NCBI RefSeq assembly: GCF_000504305.1
Contig: NZ_KI632512.1
Span: forward strand, 213,307 to 277,306
From: Nitratidesulfovibrio termitidis HI1
GTDB lineage: Bacteria; Desulfobacterota; Desulfovibrionia; Desulfovibrionales; Desulfovibrionaceae
Direction: 5' to 3'
DNA length: 64,000 bases
In this document: in pieces, positions 7,827-47,925 of the stretch
How the letters are laid out: each line of letters starts with the position of its first letter
How positions within the stretch are numbered: the stretch's first letter is position 1
The notes under the pieces: generated by a model
Told to the model about the DNA's origin: nothing
Database searches by the model: none
What the model saw: only the letters and a program-made list of their open reading frames with translations
Position numbers and translations under genes: made by a program

Positions 7827-8939
7827 TGCCCCCCTTAAATCAAGCGGCCTTTAAGGGAGAATTCCTCCAGGTTTTGTTTGCCTGCTGATGGACGCCTTGC
7901 GGAGTCTTCCAGCCAAGCGCCGAATGCAGGTATGTGGTGTTGAAGTTTTCTATCCAGTCAGAGAGGGCGCGGTCGAGGTGTTCCAGGCTACGCCATTCGT
8001 GCAGCCAGAAGAGCTCTTCCTTGATCGTACGCATTGTCCGCTCGGTATCCGCGTTCCCTTTGGGATTGTTGTAGCTGGTAAACGCCTGCGTGATGCCGAG
8101 AGTCGCGCAGTCGCGCATAAAAGCCGTTCCTGTCGGTTGGCAGCCGTTGTCGCTCATCAGGCTCAGGCCGTGCCCCCGGACGCCTCCGGGAAAGTGCGTC
8201 TGGATAGCCGTATCCAGAGCTTGCAGCCACTCATGGCTCCGGCTCCGGTAGTCGGCATGGTGGCCCACGATCTTCTTTGGAAACCAGTCCACCACCAGCA
8301 CGATATACACCCAGCCGCCTTCCGTCATGACCTTGGTCATGTCGATGCCCCACCACTGACACGGGCGGACGGGGCGCGGCTTGCTTCCGGAAGGGGTGCG
8401 CTTTGCCCGCAAGGCTGCGCGCTTCACCCCAAGGCCATGCAGACGCATCAGGCGTGCCACTCGTTTGACGTTGATGATCAGGCCGTTTTTATACCGAAGG
8501 GTGGCCCATACGCGGCGATAGCCCCAAAAGGGATGTTCCATTTTCAGGGACTCGATCAACGGCAAGAGTTCGGCATCGCGCTGAAGCTGGGCCTGGCCGG
8601 ATCGGCGCTTGCCGCTTACCAGTCGTTTTTTTAACTCCAGCGTCAGTTCGCCAACGGCTTGCTTGAGTTTTTGGTTCTCTGTCGCAAGGCGTTCTTCTCG
8701 TCGGTTAGTGGCGCCCACCTCAAAAGCCAGGGCGGCATTGGCCAACAACGTGTCGCGCCAGCGGTAATACATACCCTGAGTGATTTGATACTCACTGCAA
8801 ATGCTTGCCACAGAGCGACCCTGCAATCCCTCAAGCACAATGCGGGCCTTGCTTTTGCTGTCCCAGACTCGGCGTTTCATGCTTCCTCCAAGGATGGAAG
8901 AAAACTACCTTAACAGGGCCACCTTGTTAATGGGGGGCA
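7827..8939 (-). mobile_element. IS3-family insertion sequence, apparently intact
   Basis: A 1.1-kb element with imperfect terminal inverted repeats starting TGCCCCCC at the left and, read inward from the right, TGCCCCCCATTAA, with further matches (AAG, GGCC, TTAAGG). It holds one full-length transposase frame. No clean target duplication is visible; GTA occurs near both junctions but is offset by a base. It lies between genes and disrupts none that I recognise. Confidence 0.85.
7840..8880 (-). CDS. IS3-family transposase, single fused frame
   Basis: The 346-residue protein joins an OrfA-like helix-turn-helix (SVASICSEYQITQGMYYRWRD, residues 23-43) and a leucine-zipper-like stretch to an OrfB-like integrase core. 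Catalytic residues are D180 (WWGID), D244 (LMSDNG) and E280 (NADTER); the 35-residue spacing between the last two is the classic DD(35)E arrangement. Many IS3 members make the fusion by programmed frameshifting, whereas here OrfA and OrfB are already in one frame. No stop or frameshift is seen, so it is probably active. Confidence 0.9.
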   Translation of the reverse strand: MKRRVWDSKSKARIVLEGLQGRSVASICSEYQITQGMYYRWRDTLLANAALAFEVGATNRREERLATENQKLKQAVGELTLELKKRLVSGKRRSGQAQLQRDAELLPLIESLKMEHPFWGYRRVWATLRYKNGLIINVKRVARLMRLHGLGVKRAALRAKRTPSGSKPRPVRPCQWWGIDMTKVMTEGGWVYIVLVVDWFPKKIVGHHADYRSRSHEWLQALDTAIQTHFPGGVRGHGLSLMSDNGCQPTGTAFMRDCATLGITQAFTSYNNPKGNADTERTMRTIKEELFWLHEWRSLEHLDRALSDWIENFNTTYLHSALGWKTPQGVHQQANKTWRNSPLKAA

Positions 8940-9572: not shown

Positions 9573-9666
9573 TGGCGGAGAGGGTGGGATTCGAACCCAC
9601 GTACCGGCTACTAACCGATAACTCGATTTCGAGTCGAGCGCGTTACGGCCACTTCGCTACCTCTCC
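9573..9666 (-). tRNA. tRNA-Ser(CGA)
   Basis: The minus strand folds as a class II tRNA of 94 bases: acceptor GGAGAGG/CCTCTCC, anticodon stem CTCGA/TCGAG with loop CTCGAAA (anticodon CGA), a long variable arm, T-loop GTTCGAATC, discriminator G and an encoded CCA. It reads UCG codons. The AT-rich GHKL gene begins about 270 bases from its 5' end. Confidence 0.95.
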
Positions 9667-9939
9667 GCGTGCCAATCGGGGCTTGCCCGTGGCGGAGTGA
9701 CCTTTTAGGAAATTTCGGAAAGGAAAGCAAGCCCAAAGAGGGGGACTGGAGGACGGGGCGTGCGGCTTCGGCTGTAGGGATAGTTCTTGAGGCTTCGCAC
9801 CTGTCTCGTTATAATATTAATTGGGTTCAAAAAGTACCTGCGTTGATTTTTCATAACTGCGGTATCCTCGCGTGGTTAGCGAGTAGAAATGGGCATCCAG
9901 TCGGATAGTTCGCTCAACGATTAAAAAGATAGGGCGCAG

Positions 9940-12045
9940 ATGAGTCTAACAACCAACCTGTCGGGAAGATTAAGGAATACTACTCTTCCTAGAACTCATG
10001 CCTTATTGCCTCTCTTTGAAGCGGTTGTAAACTCTATACACGCGTGCGAAGACCTGCCTGGAAAGAGCATTACAGATGGGTCGATATGTGTACATATTCT
10101 GCGTGAGCCTAAGTCTGAAGAGCAAACAAACTTGCTTGGCGATGACGGTGCAAAAAAAACTGGCCCGGAAGCTTTGCCAGAAATTGTGGGCTTCAAAATT
10201 GATGATAACGGGGTAGGGTTCAATGATGAAAATATGATGTCTTTCAAGGAGCTTGATAGCGACTACAAAGAAGAGAAAGGCTGCCGTGGTATCGGACGTC
10301 TGCTCTGGCTAAAGGCGTTTAAAGATGTCAGCGTGAAGAGTAGTTATTTCTCTAAAGATGGAAAAATTTTTCAGCGGGTTTTTACGTTTGACAAACAAAA
10401 TGGAGTGAAACCGGGATCTCCCGAAGGAAAGATCGGGTCGCATATAAGAGAGCCTCAGACTGAAGTCGTGTTGTCTGGATTTGTTCCCGGGTATCGAAAG
10501 TATGCTCCGAAAACTATTAATAAAATAGCACATAGCATGCTTGAACATTGTCTCTGGTACTTTATCCGCGAAGGGGGCAGGCCAAGGATTAGCCTCGTTG
10601 ACGGAGACAATGCTGTTTTTTTGGATGATTTGTTTGACGGGTTTACTTTGGGGAATATTGAGCATGAGTCGATAAATATTAAAGGATGCAAATTTGAACT
10701 TACATATATAAAAGCAAGAAATCCCAGTCTGAGTAGTCATGAAGTGTGTTATTGCGCTGCTGATAGATTGGTTAGAAAAGAGAATATTACAAATAAAATT
10801 CCTGGATTGTATCGGAGGATATCAGACGCCTCCGGTCAATTCGCATATCTCTGCTTTGTTGTTTCCCCCTTTTTAAACGAGCGGGTTCGTTCTGAAAGGA
10901 CAGGGTTTGACATTGAAGAGAGTAAGAATTGTAGCGGAGAGGATGCTGTTAATCAGTTGGGGCTTTTTGATGATAATGCCGATGATGAAATCGTTTTCGA
11001 CGAAATTAATGATGTTGTGCTGAGGCAAATAGCTACACAGCTAGGTCCTATTCTTGATAAAAACAAAGAAGGCGGACGCAAACGTGTAGATACTTTCGTT
11101 TCGACTACTGCTCCAAAATATAAACCAATACTACGTCATTATCCTGAACTGACTGTTGATCCAGACACGTCTGACAAAGAGCTTGACATTATTCTTTACA
11201 AAAAGCTGTCAGATCTTGAAGTGAGCATGATATCCACGGGGCATGATTTGTCAAACACTCAGGATGATGAGCCCTTTGGGAATTATAAAAAGAGATTGGG
11301 GCAATATCTTGCAGTGGCGAGTGATATAAAAAAGTCGGACTTAGCAAGTTACGTTTCGCATAGAAAAGTGGTGCTAGATTTCTTTGAAGGGGTCATTAAG
11401 CGGCATAGAGATGGAAAGTATTCCCAAGAGAATATTGTTCATCAGCTAATCATGCCTATGCAGGTAGAATCCGGCGACATTAGGTTCGATGATGCAAATC
11501 TTTGGCTGATAGATGAACGACTTGCTTTTCATAACTTTCTTGCTTCAGATAAAACATTGTTCTCGATGCCAATAACAGGGGCGACGGAGGCTCTTGAGCC
11601 AGATATAGCATGCGTTAATATCTACGACAATCCATTGTTGGTTAATGAAGGACAGAAGTTGCCGTTGGCTAGCATAACCGTCATAGAAATTAAACACCCC
11701 ATGCGTAATGATTTCTCGGAGGGCGAGAAAGATAATCCGATTGAGCAAGCACTGCTGTATGTTCAAAAAATTCGCAAAGGACAAGTTAAAACGTTAGAAG
11801 GTAGACCGATTCCTCAGTCGGAACCTATTCCCGCATTTTGTTACATCCTTGCTGACTTAACACCTAAGATGATTGAAAGGGCAGCGTTGATGGCACTGAA
11901 ACCAACTAGCGATTATATGGGGTACTTTGGGTACAATGATAACTATAAGGCCTACATTGAGGTTGTAGGCTTTGATAGATTGATTTTAGCAGCTAAAGAG
12001 CGCAATAGAGCCTTTTTTGACAAGCTTGGGCTTCCCTCTAATTAA
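9940..12045 (+). CDS. GHKL ATPase with C-terminal PD-(D/E)xK-like domain; candidate defence gene
   Basis: This 701-residue protein is encoded by distinctly AT-rich DNA inside a GC-rich genome, a sign of recent transfer. The N-terminus is a GHKL ATPase of the Hsp90/MutL/MORC kind: E27 and N31 in LFEAVVNSIHA, D89-N-G-V-G93 in the IDDNGVGF motif, and the lid motif GCRGIG at 114-119. The middle (about 230-500) I do not recognise. The C-terminus has D555 in EPDIACVN, then E583-I-K585 in ITVIEIKHP and a conserved QALLYVQKI helix, the order expected of PD-(D/E)xK nucleases. Prokaryotic MORC/MutL-like ATPases are known near restriction systems, so an antiviral role is a reasonable inference. No partner gene is adjacent; it lies between tRNA-Ser and tadA. 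ATG at 9940 is six bases after a poor AGGGCGC site. Confidence 0.75.
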   Translation: MSLTTNLSGRLRNTTLPRTHALLPLFEAVVNSIHACEDLPGKSITDGSICVHILREPKSEEQTNLLGDDGAKKTGPEALPEIVGFKIDDNGVGFNDENMMSFKELDSDYKEEKGCRGIGRLLWLKAFKDVSVKSSYFSKDGKIFQRVFTFDKQNGVKPGSPEGKIGSHIREPQTEVVLSGFVPGYRKYAPKTINKIAHSMLEHCLWYFIREGGRPRISLVDGDNAVFLDDLFDGFTLGNIEHESINIKGCKFELTYIKARNPSLSSHEVCYCAADRLVRKENITNKIPGLYRRISDASGQFAYLCFVVSPFLNERVRSERTGFDIEESKNCSGEDAVNQLGLFDDNADDEIVFDEINDVVLRQIATQLGPILDKNKEGGRKRVDTFVSTTAPKYKPILRHYPELTVDPDTSDKELDIILYKKLSDLEVSMISTGHDLSNTQDDEPFGNYKKRLGQYLAVASDIKKSDLASYVSHRKVVLDFFEGVIKRHRDGKYSQENIVHQLIMPMQVESGDIRFDDANLWLIDERLAFHNFLASDKTLFSMPITGATEALEPDIACVNIYDNPLLVNEGQKLPLASITVIEIKHPMRNDFSEGEKDNPIEQALLYVQKIRKGQVKTLEGRPIPQSEPIPAFCYILADLTPKMIERAALMALKPTSDYMGYFGYNDNYKAYIEVVGFDRLILAAKERNRAFFDKLGLPSN

Positions 12046-12119
12046 CTGAATAGGACTTCGTTTATCCAGTATTTTCGGTGGCGAGAGGCAAAGGTAGGTT
12101 GTTAGTCTGTGCGCTGCCC

Positions 12120-12647
12120 CTACCTCCGCTCCCGGAAAAACTCCTGCAACAGCGCCCCGCACTCTGCCGCGCGCACATGGCCCATGTGCCACACCCGGTG
12201 GTTGTGGAAGGGCTGGTCCAGCGCGTCCAGGCAGGAGGTAACGGCCCCGGCCTTCAGGTCGGGCGCGCCGTACACCACGCCCGCCACGCGGGCATGCACC
12301 ATGGCCCCGGCGCACATCAGGCAGGGTTCCAGCGTCACCACTAGCACCGCGCCGTCCAGCCGGTAGTTGCCGGTGGTGCGGCAGGCCTCGCGCAGGGCCA
12401 TCATTTCCGCGTGGGCGGACGGGTCGTGCGTGGCCACGGGGGTGTTGTGCCCCGTACCGATGATGCGCCCCTGCCGGTCCACCACCACCGCGCCCACGGG
12501 CACTTCGCCTAGGCCTGCGGCCTTGCGGGCCTGCGCAAGTGCGGCATCCATCAGCACATCCCACGTCCAGCCGGGCGGGGCAGGGGGGACTGGGCCAGCC
12601 GGTCCGCGCAGGGCGTAGGGCGGCAGGATGAAGGCGTCGTCCGTCAC
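12120..12647 (-). CDS. tadA: tRNA-specific adenosine deaminase
   Basis: Zinc-dependent deaminase that converts the wobble adenosine of tRNA-Arg(ACG) to inosine; three tRNA-Arg(ACG) genes occur in this window. The catalytic HAE (79-81) and PCLMC (108-112) motifs are intact and the 175-residue length is normal. The start is set at a GTG 7 bases after GGAG; longer upstream frames would run into a terminator. An N-terminal Pro-rich stretch of about 20 residues precedes the domain. The gene is monocistronic on the minus strand. Confidence 0.9.
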   Translation of the reverse strand: MTDDAFILPPYALRGPAGPVPPAPPGWTWDVLMDAALAQARKAAGLGEVPVGAVVVDRQGRIIGTGHNTPVATHDPSAHAEMMALREACRTTGNYRLDGAVLVVTLEPCLMCAGAMVHARVAGVVYGAPDLKAGAVTSCLDALDQPFHNHRVWHMGHVRAAECGALLQEFFRERR

Positions 12648-12660
12648 GATACTGCTCCGA

Positions 12661-12699
12661 AAAATATCCGGCCCGGTTGCCGTCTGGTGGCCGGGCCGG
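12661..12699 (-). terminator. Terminator between LOG gene and tadA
   Basis: Perfect nine-base arms CCGGCCCGG and CCGGGCCGG; the minus-strand hairpin is followed by ATATTTTT. It separates tadA from the upstream LOG gene. Confidence 0.75.
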
Positions 12700-12756
12700 T
12701 TTCTGTTGCGTCCTTGGCGCGGCGAAGGCCCGCAAGCCTCGTCTGTCGCGCCTTTG

Positions 12757-12957
12757 GGTGGTGTCGTCACGAGCGGGAATTTTGTTCTCTGCCAAGGAAG
12801 AACTATTTTTTATGTAGGGAGTGCGGCAGCCGTTAGGCGAGCCTGTGAGCCATACGGATGGCGACCGCACCGCGTACTCTTTTTGTACTCGACCGAAATA
12901 AAAAATGGTTCTGACGCAGGCAGAGGGCAAAAGGACGCTCGTGACGGCACCCCCTAG
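12757..12957. repeat. Stop-codon-anchored palindromic repeat, copy E (compound)
   Basis: About 200 bases with inverted outer arms (GGTGTCGTCACGAGCG against GGTGCCGTCACGAGCG, then TCTGCC, AGAAC and ATTTTTTAT blocks on both sides). The right end is CTAG at 12954-12957 and includes the TAG stop of the LOG gene. Its centre carries a nested small hairpin (CCGTTAGGCGAG ... GCCATACGG) followed by GACCGCA and GTACTCGACCG, the same modules as in copy D at 53102. The outer arms are diverged from copies A and B but keep the TCCTTTTGCC-like block. Confidence 0.7.
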
Positions 12958-13610
12958 ATGATCACATGCTTCCTTATGTAACTCACCACCTGCTCGGGGG
13001 TGTCCAGCACGGTGAAGAGTTCCATTTCTTCTTCGCGGATGAAGTTGTACGAGACCATCTTGTCGCGAATCCAGTCCAGCAGGCCGTTCCAGTAGTCACT
13101 TTTGTACAGGATGATGGGGAACGGCTTGATGCGGTGGGTCTGCGTCAGCACAAAGGCCTCGGTCAGTTCGTCCAGCGTGCCCACGCCGCCAGGCATGACC
13201 ACGTAGGCCATGGCGTACTTGATGAACATCAGCTTGCGCACGAAAAAGTAGCGGAAGTCGCAGCGCGTCTTCACGAACTGGTTGGCGCCCTGTTCCATGG
13301 GCAGGTGGATGTGCAGCCCCACGGATGTGCCGCCCGCGTCGGCCGCGCCCTTGTTGCCCGCTTCCATAAGGCCGGGGCCGCCGCCGGTGATGACGCCGTA
13401 TCCGGCCTCCACCAGCTTGCGGGCAATGGTTTCCGTTTCCGTGTACAGGGGATTGTCGGGCTTCACCCGCGCGGACCCGAAAATGGACACGCAGCGGTCC
13501 AGGTCGCTCAGGGTTTCGAAGCCGTCCACCAGTTCGGCCATTATCTTGAAGAGCCGCCACGACTCCTTTATGGACAGGTTGTCAATCACGTACTGCTTGG
13601 AAGAACCCAT
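12954..13610 (-). CDS. LOG-family nucleotide phosphoribohydrolase
   Basis: The 218-residue protein has both LOG/lysine-decarboxylase-like motifs, GGGPGLMEA at 76-84 and PGGVGTLDELTE at 140-151, which form the nucleotide-binding and catalytic site. LOG enzymes hydrolyse nucleoside 5'-monophosphates to free base and ribose 5-phosphate; bacterial substrates vary (cytokinin nucleotides, AMP, or pyrimidine/purine monophosphates). AAGGAG precedes the ATG. Its stop codon is part of a palindromic repeat. Confidence 0.85.
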   Translation of the reverse strand: MGSSKQYVIDNLSIKESWRLFKIMAELVDGFETLSDLDRCVSIFGSARVKPDNPLYTETETIARKLVEAGYGVITGGGPGLMEAGNKGAADAGGTSVGLHIHLPMEQGANQFVKTRCDFRYFFVRKLMFIKYAMAYVVMPGGVGTLDELTEAFVLTQTHRIKPFPIILYKSDYWNGLLDWIRDKMVSYNFIREEEMELFTVLDTPEQVVSYIRKHVII

Positions 13611-44586: not shown

Positions 44587-44750
44587 GGCCAAACCTCGCT
44601 CCTGTTTTTCCTGTTTCCACGTGATTGCATTGATAATGCGCACTTGCTGATTTTGCAGCTGCACTGTGCCTGGTGTCGGTGACGATGCTTGGGCGGGATG
44701 AACTTTATCCGGACAATGTCAGGTGCATGGCCAGGTATCCTTTGTTGTGC

Positions 44751-45233
44751 CTATATGATGCCATCAAATACGTGGCCCACTGGAAGAGTGACGCCAAGCA
44801 ACCTTGAGAAGACAAAGTAGAATACAATGACGCATGCCATTGTTCCCAGGCAATTCATTAAAATACAAGATGATGTCCGTTTTTCTTTTGGGATATACCT
44901 GATAATCAGGATTGAAATGCTTATGAAGCTGGCAAGAATAAATCCCAAGATATTCAAGAGAAGAGCCCATGCCGCGCCCACTACCATCGATAGCATCATG
45001 GTGTCGTTTATCTTGAATATGACCCTATTGCTTTCCTTTTTTTTCAATACACCCTTGATGACAAGGATTACGCCCAAGAAGGCAAGAAAGGGCAAGATGA
45101 TTTCTGGAAAGAATGCACCGAAGGGCGTGAAGTCGTCATTCAGCTGGAAGTAGAAAAACGATGAGATGGCCAGAACGGCAACGCCGCCCACCGCATCGGT
45201 ATTTGTATTAACTTGCATGAGAATTTTCTCCAT
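44751..45233 (-). CDS. tctB: Tripartite tricarboxylate transporter, small membrane subunit TctB
   Basis: The 160-residue protein has four membrane helices (AVLAISSFFYFQL, FFPEIILPFLAFLGVILVI, MLSMVVGAAWALLLNILGFILA, MACVIVFYFVFSRLLG), typical of TctB. It overlaps the 3' end of tctA. Starts at 45233 (AGGGA close by) or at 45218 (GGAG nine bases upstream) are both possible. With TctA and TctC it forms a secondary uptake system driven by ion gradients. Confidence 0.85.
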   Translation of the reverse strand: MEKILMQVNTNTDAVGGVAVLAISSFFYFQLNDDFTPFGAFFPEIILPFLAFLGVILVIKGVLKKKESNRVIFKINDTMMLSMVVGAAWALLLNILGFILASFISISILIIRYIPKEKRTSSCILMNCLGTMACVIVFYFVFSRLLGVTLPVGHVFDGII

Positions 45234-46746
45234 TCCCTGCCGTATGCAGTTTGGAACTGACTTTTTTGATCAGGGGCCAGCACAGCGACAACGCACAGCA
45301 GGCCGCCAGCACGATGCAGATTGGACGTGTGAGGAAGATCAGCCAGGGGGCAGACTGGCTGACAGCCCCTCCCATGATTATGCCTTGCACGAAGCCGCGC
45401 TCTGCGATCGGGCCAAGGATCAGACCCAGCACGATCGGCCCCGGGTCGAATTCAAGCTCTTTCAGGCAATAGCCTAAAAGACCGCTGCCGAACATGATCA
45501 GCACATCAGCAGCATTGTTGCGTATGGCATAGGAGCCAACAACTGTAAGCAGCATGATGGCGGGGATCATGTAGCGGGAAGGAGTTTTTGTGACAACTTG
45601 AAATATAAATTTCCCTGCAAAAATACCGAGCACGGCCATGAGTATGTTGCAGAAGAAGAAAGAAAGCATGAATGCGTAGGTAATGTCGCCATTTTTACTG
45701 AAAAGTTCGGGGCCAGGTGTAATGCCTTGCATGAGCAGGGCGCCAAAGATGATGGCGGCGGGGGGTGATCCGGGGATTCCCATGGCAAGAAGAGGAACCA
45801 AGGCGCCTTCAACAGTAGCGTTGTTTGCTGATTCCGTGGCTACAATGCCCTGTGCATTGCCATTGCCGAAGGTTTCGGGATCCATTGCGGCGCGTTTGGC
45901 CTCGTTATAGGCGACAATGTTGGATATATTGCCGCCAGCACCGGGAAGGATGCCTATCAGTGCACCAAGGACGGATGAGCGCATGGTGTTGCCCATGTGA
46001 TGCGTCACGTTCTTCCAGGCCTGTCGCAATGCATGGGAACTGCCGCTCAGCTTGCCCATGATGACAAGTTTCTGGTTGGGGGTGGCCGCCATGTTGAATA
46101 CTTCGGGAATACAGAAAAAGCCGATCAAAACTGAAACAAGTTCCATTCCGCCCTGTAGCGACGCGACGTTGAGCGTAAAGCGGATGTCGCCGCCGATCGG
46201 GGCTATTCCGATCATGCTGAGCATTACGCCGATAAGCCCGCCAGCCACGCCTTTGATCAAGGATTTGTCCGACAGGCTGGTGATGATGGTCATGCCGAAG
46301 ACTGCGGTCCAAAAGAATTCCGGGGGCCCGAATTTCAATGATACCTGCGCGAGAGGCAGTGCAAACATGATCAGGATGGCGGTGCCGATGAGTCCCCCGA
46401 AACTCGACGCCACAGAGGCCGTGTACAGCGCCTCCTCGCCGCGCCCCTGCCGAGCCATGGGGTAGCCATCAAAACACGTGGCGATCGAAGACGGCGTGCC
46501 CGGTGTATTGAGCAGTATCGCCGAGAAAGCGCCGCCAAAAATGGTTGAGGAATAGAGTGCGCCGATGGTTACAAGCGCCGGAATTGGATCCATGGTAAAT
46601 GTGAATGGCACCAGTAAGGCAACTGCCATGGTTGCTGAAAAGCCAGGAAGGGCTCCGGCGATGATTCCCAGAAAGCATGCTATCAGCATGAAAAGCATAT
46701 TTTGAAATGTAACAACATTGCTGAAAGCGGTTACTATTATGTCCAT
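45208..46746 (-). CDS. tctA: Tripartite tricarboxylate transporter, large membrane subunit TctA
   Basis: A 512-residue permease with about 11-12 membrane helices. Family motifs are GIIAGALPGFSATMAVALLVPFTF, GALYSSTIFGGAFSAILLNTPGTPSSIATCFDGYP, and the second-half repeat GILPGAGGNISNIVAYNEAKR and LLAMGIPGSPPAAIIFGALL. GGAGG precedes the ATG. GC content is lower than in the genome backbone, as for its neighbours. Confidence 0.92.
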   Translation of the reverse strand: MDIIVTAFSNVVTFQNMLFMLIACFLGIIAGALPGFSATMAVALLVPFTFTMDPIPALVTIGALYSSTIFGGAFSAILLNTPGTPSSIATCFDGYPMARQGRGEEALYTASVASSFGGLIGTAILIMFALPLAQVSLKFGPPEFFWTAVFGMTIITSLSDKSLIKGVAGGLIGVMLSMIGIAPIGGDIRFTLNVASLQGGMELVSVLIGFFCIPEVFNMAATPNQKLVIMGKLSGSSHALRQAWKNVTHHMGNTMRSSVLGALIGILPGAGGNISNIVAYNEAKRAAMDPETFGNGNAQGIVATESANNATVEGALVPLLAMGIPGSPPAAIIFGALLMQGITPGPELFSKNGDITYAFMLSFFFCNILMAVLGIFAGKFIFQVVTKTPSRYMIPAIMLLTVVGSYAIRNNAADVLIMFGSGLLGYCLKELEFDPGPIVLGLILGPIAERGFVQGIIMGGAVSQSAPWLIFLTRPICIVLAACCALSLCWPLIKKVSSKLHTAGNGENSHAS

Positions 46747-46974
46747 TTCTGCCTCCTTCTGTCTTGACATAGAATAGTAGGCATATCGTTTTTGTAGCCA
46801 TTGGCGCAGAAGTAATTTGACGATAGTCCACTTGCTGCATCATCTATTCAGCTGTTCACCCTTTGCATGCATCTGTGCGCAGAACTATCCAGGTTATTTG
46901 TACATGATTGCAGAGGGTGAACAGTTTGTTGTCGTCTTGTGAAAGTCAGGATGCAAGGCTGATATTTGCTGTTG

Positions 46975-47925
46975 CTACTTGCTGAGCTCGTCAAGGATGT
47001 TCTTGTACTCTTCGAATTTTCGATTGATATAGTTCTGGCTTTCCTGTGGATTCATGTCGAGCAGGGTGAAACCCATTGGCGTCATCTTTGCGGAAAAATC
47101 AGGATCGGCGTTTATCTTGGCGCATGCCTCGTAAAGAATTTGCGTGATATTGTCTGGCGTCTGCGGGGGGACTGCAAGCCCGCGAACAGAGCCTTCAATG
47201 ATGTCATATCCAAGCTCCTTGAACGTAGGCGCGTCGATGTTGTGCGCACGCTCTTCAGAAGCCACCGCCAGCACCCGCATGTCATTGGGGTATGGTCCAG
47301 ATGTTGTGGTGAAGCCCATGACGGCTGTCACGTGCTTGCCCAAAAGCGCCGGGGGAAGGTCTGCCGTTCCGGGGAAGGGGATGTAGGCGAACTTGGCGGA
47401 AGTGTGCTTGTTCAACAGCACGGTTGCGATATGCCCCGCAGTCGCGTTGCCTACCCCGCCGATGATGATGCTGCCTGGGTTTTCCTTCTGGGCTTTGATG
47501 AGATCGTCGAGGGTTTTGTAGGGGCTGTCGGCTCGTACCACCAGCGCGCAAGGAGTAATCATGAATATCATGGCCGGTTTGATGTCGCTGGTCTTATAGC
47601 CGGCGTTCTTTCGCTGCAAAGGTTGCAGGATGATGTGCGGTATGTTGAATCCGGCCGTGTAATAGCCAGAAGGTTTGCTGTTGGCCAGTTCACTCCAGGC
47701 GACAGCACCACCAGCTCCAACTTTGTAGCTAATGAGAATCTTTTGCTTCAGTTCTTTTTCAAGGTAAGGTTGCTGTGCTCTGGCAAAAATATCAGATTCT
47801 CCACCGGGACTGAACGGGATCAGATAGTTGATGGGTTCTTCCTTGGGGTATTGGTCTGCTGCGAAAGCGTGTGTCGTTGCGATCATGAAAAATGAAAGAA
47901 ATACAACTGAGAATAAACGTTTCAT
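46975..47925 (-). CDS. tctC: TctC/Bug-family periplasmic binding protein
   Basis: The 316-residue product starts MKRLFSVVFLSFFMIATTHAFA, a signal peptide cleaved before ADQYPKEE. The mature protein begins with INYLIPFSPGGESDIFAR, the ligand-binding loop of Bug proteins, and has the GGAVAWSELANSKPSGYYTA and GVGNATAGHIA segments. It delivers a carboxylate to TctAB. First gene of the operon; 228 bases separate it from tctA. GGAGG precedes ATG. Confidence 0.92.
   Translation of the reverse strand: MKRLFSVVFLSFFMIATTHAFAADQYPKEEPINYLIPFSPGGESDIFARAQQPYLEKELKQKILISYKVGAGGAVAWSELANSKPSGYYTAGFNIPHIILQPLQRKNAGYKTSDIKPAMIFMITPCALVVRADSPYKTLDDLIKAQKENPGSIIIGGVGNATAGHIATVLLNKHTSAKFAYIPFPGTADLPPALLGKHVTAVMGFTTTSGPYPNDMRVLAVASEERAHNIDAPTFKELGYDIIEGSVRGLAVPPQTPDNITQILYEACAKINADPDFSAKMTPMGFTLLDMNPQESQNYINRKFEEYKNILDELSK

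Follow-up and report, generated by a model that had tools for sequence, protein, structure and literature searches.

The low-GC gene lodged between tRNA-Ser(CGA) and tadA in Nitratidesulfovibrio termitidis HI1 is most probably a horizontally moved, single-gene nuclease of the paraMORC3 family, acting against phages or plasmids in the manner of VcSduA. This unannotated mobile gene, missed by Pfam, NCBIfam, PADLOC and PHROGs, joins a family with one tested anti-phage member, seen on Ti plasmids, on Rhodococcus and Vibrio plasmids and in prophages. Its kind is known already, paraMORC3 having been predicted in 2008 and phage defence by VcSduA having been shown in 2025; a sliding-clamp-type motif in one loop of the protein may be new.

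A mobile gene in a variable slot

Throughout, the window is the whole stretch of 64,000 nucleotides that was analysed. Its ORF list and translation give one plus-strand open reading frame with an ATG start, encoding 701 amino acids plus a stop codon. A reading made earlier from the sequence only had placed a single gene at 9780-12075; the single gene stands, but its left end lies 160 bases, and its right end 30 bases, inside that span. The gene and its surroundings are as follows.

9573..9666, minus strand: tRNA-Ser(CGA), left border of the cargo slot
9743..12115, no strand: inserted stretch (cargo slot); five sister genomes lack it or hold other cargo instead
9787..9815, plus strand: promoter-like site TTGAGG-17-TATAAT, upstream of the GHKL nuclease gene
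9940..12045, plus strand: GHKL nuclease gene, 701 aa (GHKL ATPase, S5-like domain, helical linker, PD-(D/E)xK nuclease)
12120..12770, minus strand: tadA, right border of the slot; HAE...PCLMC deaminase motif read directly

The slot between tRNA-Ser(CGA) and tadA, correctly named as the gene's setting in the earlier reading, spans about 2.4 kb, and tadA is kept beside it in six sister genomes. Promoter-like sites show no excess over shuffled sequence in the region, so that the TTGAGG-17-TATAAT site is only suggestive, and no direct repeats or att sites above chance matches flank the gene in the window. An IS3-type transposase (HTH_Tnp_1, HTH_21, rve) lies at 7840-8880 on the minus strand, just outside the block (from 8976) that is kept beside the tRNA-Ser gene in sister genomes.

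The gene has a GC content of 0.417 (41.7%) and a GC3 of 0.39, against a GC content of 0.635 (63.5%) for the window, and is the lowest-GC 2.1-kb stretch within it; the genes to its right have a GC3 of 0.84-0.86. To follow the slot through the genus, the tadA-side flank was located in other genomes, and six such sites were read. In sister genome L082, the sequence matches the window up to 9742, continues for about 13 bases, and matches again from 12120. Because L082 joins the two flanks almost directly, the GC jumps match real insertion borders, and the sharp shift in composition noted in the sequence-only reading coincides with the ends of the insertion. Three of the six sites, L082 included, are empty or nearly so, with 13, 170 and 171 bases between the flanks. 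Two others hold different cargo: about 1.3 kb with a 200-aa ORF that has no Pfam match in one case, and about 2.05 kb encoding a 527-aa alpha/beta-hydrolase-like protein in the other. The remaining site, in genome G401, contains an intact GHKL nuclease gene that is 90% identical. Counting the window together with these sites (L079-L084), two of the slots carry the GHKL nuclease, two carry other genes, and three are empty or nearly so. These data demonstrate that the GHKL nuclease gene is mobile and that its presence at the tRNA-Ser/tadA slot is polymorphic. Two near-empty sites contain, within the slot, 29 bases that copy the tRNA-Ser 3' end, perhaps the scar of an old attachment site.

Beyond the genus, the distribution is patchy, with a match in 14 of the 347 genomes of the order, and no similar DNA was found in E. 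coli genomes. One of the nearest relatives outside the genus, with 79% identity, is carried by an IMG/VR prophage contig, downstream of a phage integrase and on its strand, and is likewise AT-rich relative to its flanks (GC 0.384 versus 0.616). In the tree, the window protein falls inside a supported clade with proteins of Vibrio and Acinetobacter (Gammaproteobacteria) and of Rhodococcus plasmids, as lateral transfer would give.

This distribution bears on the reading of the protein as a MutL-like GHKL nuclease that serves the repair of host DNA, whether in mismatch repair or in genome maintenance. Such an enzyme would share with MutL and NucS the GHKL-nuclease logic and the clamp-type motif, and a role of this sort was allowed for some standalone paraMORC3 genes by Iyer, Abhiman and Aravind in 2008 (PMC2292703). 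However, the gene is missing from 333 of the 347 genomes in the order, sister species lack it at the very same slot, the MutL endonuclease motif DQHA is absent from the translated protein, and the genes beside the homologues belong to defence and mobile elements, all of which makes host repair highly improbable.

A GHKL ATPase joined to a Shedu-like nuclease domain

The protein is divided as follows, with residue numbers and window coordinates.

9958..10569, plus strand: GHKL ATPase domain, residues ~7-210; E27/N31, D89NGVG93, G114CRGIG119; Hsp90/MORC/topo VI-B fold
10585..10884, plus strand: S5/transducer-like domain, residues ~216-315; invariant R276, with R320 just after the domain
10915..10995, plus strand: presumably disordered loop, residues ~326-352; pLDDT 42-52, length and sequence variable
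10954..10968, plus strand: QLGLF, residues 339-343, motif of sliding-clamp-binding type inside the loop
10996..11397, plus strand: long helical linker, residues ~353-486, from the AlphaFold2 model
11428..12009, plus strand: PD-(D/E)xK nuclease domain, residues ~497-690; E497, H501, D555, E583, K585, Q603, Y607
11602-11604, 11686-11688 and 11692-11694, plus strand: nuclease codons of D555, E583 and K585

The GHKL motifs (E27, N31, D89-N-G-V-G93 and G114-C-R-G-I-G119) and the nuclease-like D555 and E583-x-K585 are found at the residues first given for them. Conservation was assessed over 42 homologues from plasmids, prophages and chromosomes, with identity down to 23%. Across this set, D89, G91, G93, G114, G117, G119 and R120 of the GHKL domain are invariant, as are E497, H501, D555, E583 and K585 of the nuclease domain, while E27, N31, Q603 and Y607 are conserved in at least 90%. 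Profile libraries recognise the protein poorly: the Pfam, NCBIfam and PADLOC HMMs gave no match to the window protein, and PHROGs gave chance-level matches only (E 0.06 and above). HATPase_c is matched by 16 of 22 homologues. In a family-profile search of PDB sequences, only histidine-kinase ATPase domains were retrieved (E 0.4-0.6), with nothing for the C-terminal domain. The names Tiamat (TmtA) and PD-Lambda-5 were also considered and dropped: the window protein had no PADLOC match, and each of the two was hit by one of the 22 homologues, at E 0.003-0.004.

The AlphaFold2 model has a mean pLDDT of 83 for the whole protein and of 85 when residues 455-701 are modelled alone. Residues 1-378 of the model match the ATPase modules of Hsp90, SMCHD1, MORC2/3/4 and topo VI-B with Z of 16-18.6, and a single alignment with the Hsp90, MORC3 and topo VI-B modules covers this whole range, indicating that the predicted fold includes the S5 domain. 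For the C-terminal model, the best solved structures (VIA-align among Foldseek candidates) are E. coli SduA (8ps4, 8ps5) and B. cereus Shedu (8ti9, 8ti8), at Z 8.9-9.8 over 160-172 residues, values that are modest and in a near tie with the structures that follow, namely Nt.BspD6I, NucS/EndoMS (Z 8.4), McrC and FokI, all of PD-(D/E)xK nuclease fold. Foldseek alone returned weak matches only for this domain, the best being FokI at E 0.028. The Z values for Shedu are modest, but the profile-profile comparison agrees with them: hhalign against an SduA_C alignment of eleven Shedu C-terminal domains gave a probability of 93% and an E of 2.9e-7 and aligned ExK with ExK and Q with Q. The Pfam SduA_C model (DUF4263 / PF14082) did not reach its cut-off, with one of 43 C-terminal domains matched at E 0.14, and HSDR_N was matched by five of the 43 (best 5e-4). 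Structure prediction and search, proposed at the outset as a check on the nuclease-like C-terminus, thus gave a nuclease-like domain whose best matches are SduA/Shedu.

The protein belongs to paraMORC3 and resembles VcSduA

The sequence-only reading could not match the gene to a named system, a view that no longer holds. The paraMORC3 family was defined by Iyer, Abhiman and Aravind in 2008 as proteins with GHKL, S5 and a C-terminal E-D-ExK nuclease, sporadic in their distribution and often encoded by standalone genes (PMC2292703). The window protein shares this composition: E27, N31, D89xG91xG93 and G114xxG117xG119 are invariant or nearly so in its GHKL domain, and E497, D555 and E583xK585 are invariant in its C-terminal nuclease of restriction-endonuclease (RE) fold. 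It also shares the sporadic occurrence and the frequent standalone position, and no feature was found that sets it apart from paraMORC3, whose named members were compared by description only.

One member of this kind has been tested. Adams et al. (2025) described VcSduA (V. cholerae A1552VC_00276) as a single protein with GHKL and PD-(D/E)xK domains that guards against Drexlerviridae and vibriophage X29, that works alone in E. coli, and whose defence is abolished by either E27A or K557A; the infected culture stays viable (PMC12137116). In the same paper, VcSduA-like proteins are taken to be paraMORC3 and are assigned to Shedu type I-D (PMC12137116). The window protein and VcSduA have in common an N-terminal GHKL domain with E27, a middle clamp region and a C-terminal PD-(D/E)xK domain, and VcSduA is likewise a single gene, on mobile islands. 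In homologues from Vibrio, Salinivibrio and Acinetobacter plasmids, E27 is accompanied by a lysine at K556 to K558, bracketing K557 of VcSduA, and the E27-to-K spacing is 529-531 in the Vibrionaceae and Acinetobacter homologues against 530 in VcSduA. The likeness to VcSduA is drawn from published architecture and residue spacing, and on these terms the window protein corresponds to it as a single protein with GHKL and PD-(D/E)xK domains, the catalytic E27 and the ExK lysine. It differs in being about 28 residues longer, largely in two loops predicted to be disordered, one of which holds QLGLF, so that the lysine is K585 rather than ~557. The host differs, too: the gene occurs patchily in a high-GC genus of another lineage.

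With classical Shedu (SduA of E. coli and B. cereus; 8ps4/8ti9), the nuclease core is common by fold and by profile, whereas Pfam SduA_C stays below its cut-off on the family of the window protein. SduA of E. coli and of B. cereus is not known to carry a GHKL domain. Since the Pfam SduA_C cut-off is not reached and VcSduA was compared by architecture, we file the window protein as paraMORC3 ('GHKL-Shedu', or Shedu type I-D), with an architecture and a probable action like those of VcSduA, and make no claim from Pfam that it is a classical Shedu. NucS/EndoMS has a related nuclease fold and a short clamp-docking motif, xxxLF in NucS (PMC8228993), but is a housekeeping mismatch-repair enzyme of Archaea and Actinobacteria with another N-terminal domain and with the motif at its C-terminus.

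For the window protein itself, we infer defence, dimerisation, DNA cutting and the trigger. As in other GHKL machines, ATP binding by the N-terminal domain would close the dimer, and the S5 and helical regions would clamp DNA or a protein partner. Once closed, the dimer would hold its pair of C-terminal Shedu-like PD-(D/E)xK domains against foreign DNA and cleave it, and ATP hydrolysis, dependent on E27, would reset the cycle.

Relatives lie among defence genes, on plasmids and in prophages

Homologues were found by tblastn in 55 plasmid records, including conjugative plasmids and Ti plasmids, and at 43 loci in viral contigs by a profile-guided search. In 14 of 18 annotated homologue neighbourhoods, genes for restriction, CBASS, Abi, Shedu, SIR2, TIR, HEPN or similar functions lie within ~12 kb, and on eight plasmids defence-type genes were near the homologue in 8/8 cases but in a distant control stretch in 2/8, counts that are indicative only, being coded by eye from annotated names over few loci. 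The neighbourhood survey suggested in the sequence-only reading therefore places the homologues among defence genes and not mostly in housekeeping contexts. Together with the conserved residues, the folds and the architecture shared with VcSduA, it bears out the original view of a GHKL ATPase fused to a PD-(D/E)xK domain and acting in defence. Because the paraMORC3 architecture is that of the phage-tested VcSduA and the relatives lie among defence genes, the role of the window protein is very probably anti-phage or anti-plasmid.

Some of these loci raise the question of whether the protein is part of a larger restriction system, as an accessory ATPase-nuclease dependent on a type I restriction-modification (RM) or other partner. 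In Salinivibrio and Vibrio (L006, L007), the homologue closes a type I RM operon, and in Celeribacter it overlaps a restriction-endonuclease gene by 4 bases. By contrast, the gene is alone in the window, in G401 and at many other loci, the partner varies from locus to locus, and VcSduA acts alone in E. coli; dependence on such a partner is accordingly unlikely. The operon of Salinivibrio and Vibrio fluvialis reads integrase, XRE regulator, PIN, type I RM, SMC/AAA-type ATPase and then the homologue, and in Vibrio fluvialis a separate Shedu gene directly precedes the homologue, placing two Shedu-fold nucleases side by side.

Another alternative concerns the beneficiary. The nuclease could be a prophage or plasmid weapon, used in superinfection exclusion or inter-plasmid competition to protect its carrier element and not the cell. 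Prophages and plasmids are where the closest relatives occur: the 79% homologue lies downstream of a phage integrase, that of phage PJN03 lies beside an integrase, and the viral-contig loci and plasmid records add to these. Yet no element genes are left around the window gene, and the mechanism would be the same with only the beneficiary changed, so that we regard protection of the element as possible but the less likely case, and defence by a horizontally moved nuclease of the paraMORC3 family as the better reading. The PJN03 homologue (L009 2485-4509) is annotated in GenBank as 'N-acetylmuramoyl-L-alanine amidase', a label that is very probably wrong.

A candidate sliding-clamp motif in the variable loop

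In the model, the loop at residues 326-352 holds QLGLF at 339-343 with a pLDDT of ~42, which places the motif in a segment predicted to be accessible. The consensus for beta-clamp motifs is QL[S/D]LF or Q-phi-x-[L/M]-[F/L] (PMC13254535), and DnaE of the host contains QVSLF in an internal region that seems to correspond. The window protein and its four closest relatives carry QLGLF, QFGLF, QSSLL, QSSLF and QGSLF, all of the form Q-x-x-L-[F/L], which recurs even though the surrounding loop is divergent and hard to align; a relative at 42-44% identity has QHNLL. A weaker form, x-x-[D/G/N/S]-[L/M/I]-F, is found in the same position in a large part of the family, and about one quarter of the family is without such a loop.

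Among the loops of all sequences examined, the strict motif was counted 7 times against 0.5 expected from shuffled loops, and the looser core [D/G/S/N][L/M/I][F/Y/L] was present in 20 of 39 non-redundant loops against 4.1 expected, a number reached in 0 of 3000 shuffles. This signal emerged after the fact, when the loop was taken alone and closer relatives, which are not independent, were added; over whole proteins of the first homologue set, the strict motif was not above chance (1 observed, 2.4 expected).

We tentatively propose, from the recurrence of the motif in these sequences, that this GHKL-Shedu branch may dock on the sliding clamp (beta, DnaN) through the loop, aiming cleavage at replicating DNA. 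A docked nuclease would target the replication forks of phages or plasmids, or clamps that stay behind on DNA. The proposed docking is likened to that of MutL and NucS in repair, and NucS binds DnaN through a similar [E/K]xxLF motif, which activates it (PMC8228993). Adams et al. make no mention of the sliding clamp, DnaN or the replisome for VcSduA (PMC12137116), and short hydrophobic motifs of the QLGLF type can instead serve contacts inside a protein. If the motif is real, foreign DNA would be found by riding the replication machinery, and the mismatch-repair enzymes MutL and NucS would be linked with antiviral nucleases through common parts.

Other features of the window

Between tadA and the next gene, at 12757-12958, lies a dispersed repeat with about 50 matching places per genome in eight genomes of the genus, at ~74-94% identity. 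It is bounded by a 19-nt inverted repeat (12757-12775 / 12936-12954), contains an inner 20-nt inverted pair, matches no Rfam family, and looks like a MITE- or REP-like intergenic element. A second low-GC stretch, of about 50%, extends from 44700 to 47900; its ORFs, read by eye, resemble a tripartite tricarboxylate transporter of TctABC type with a dehydrogenase beside it, and the stretch is probably acquired metabolism rather than defence.
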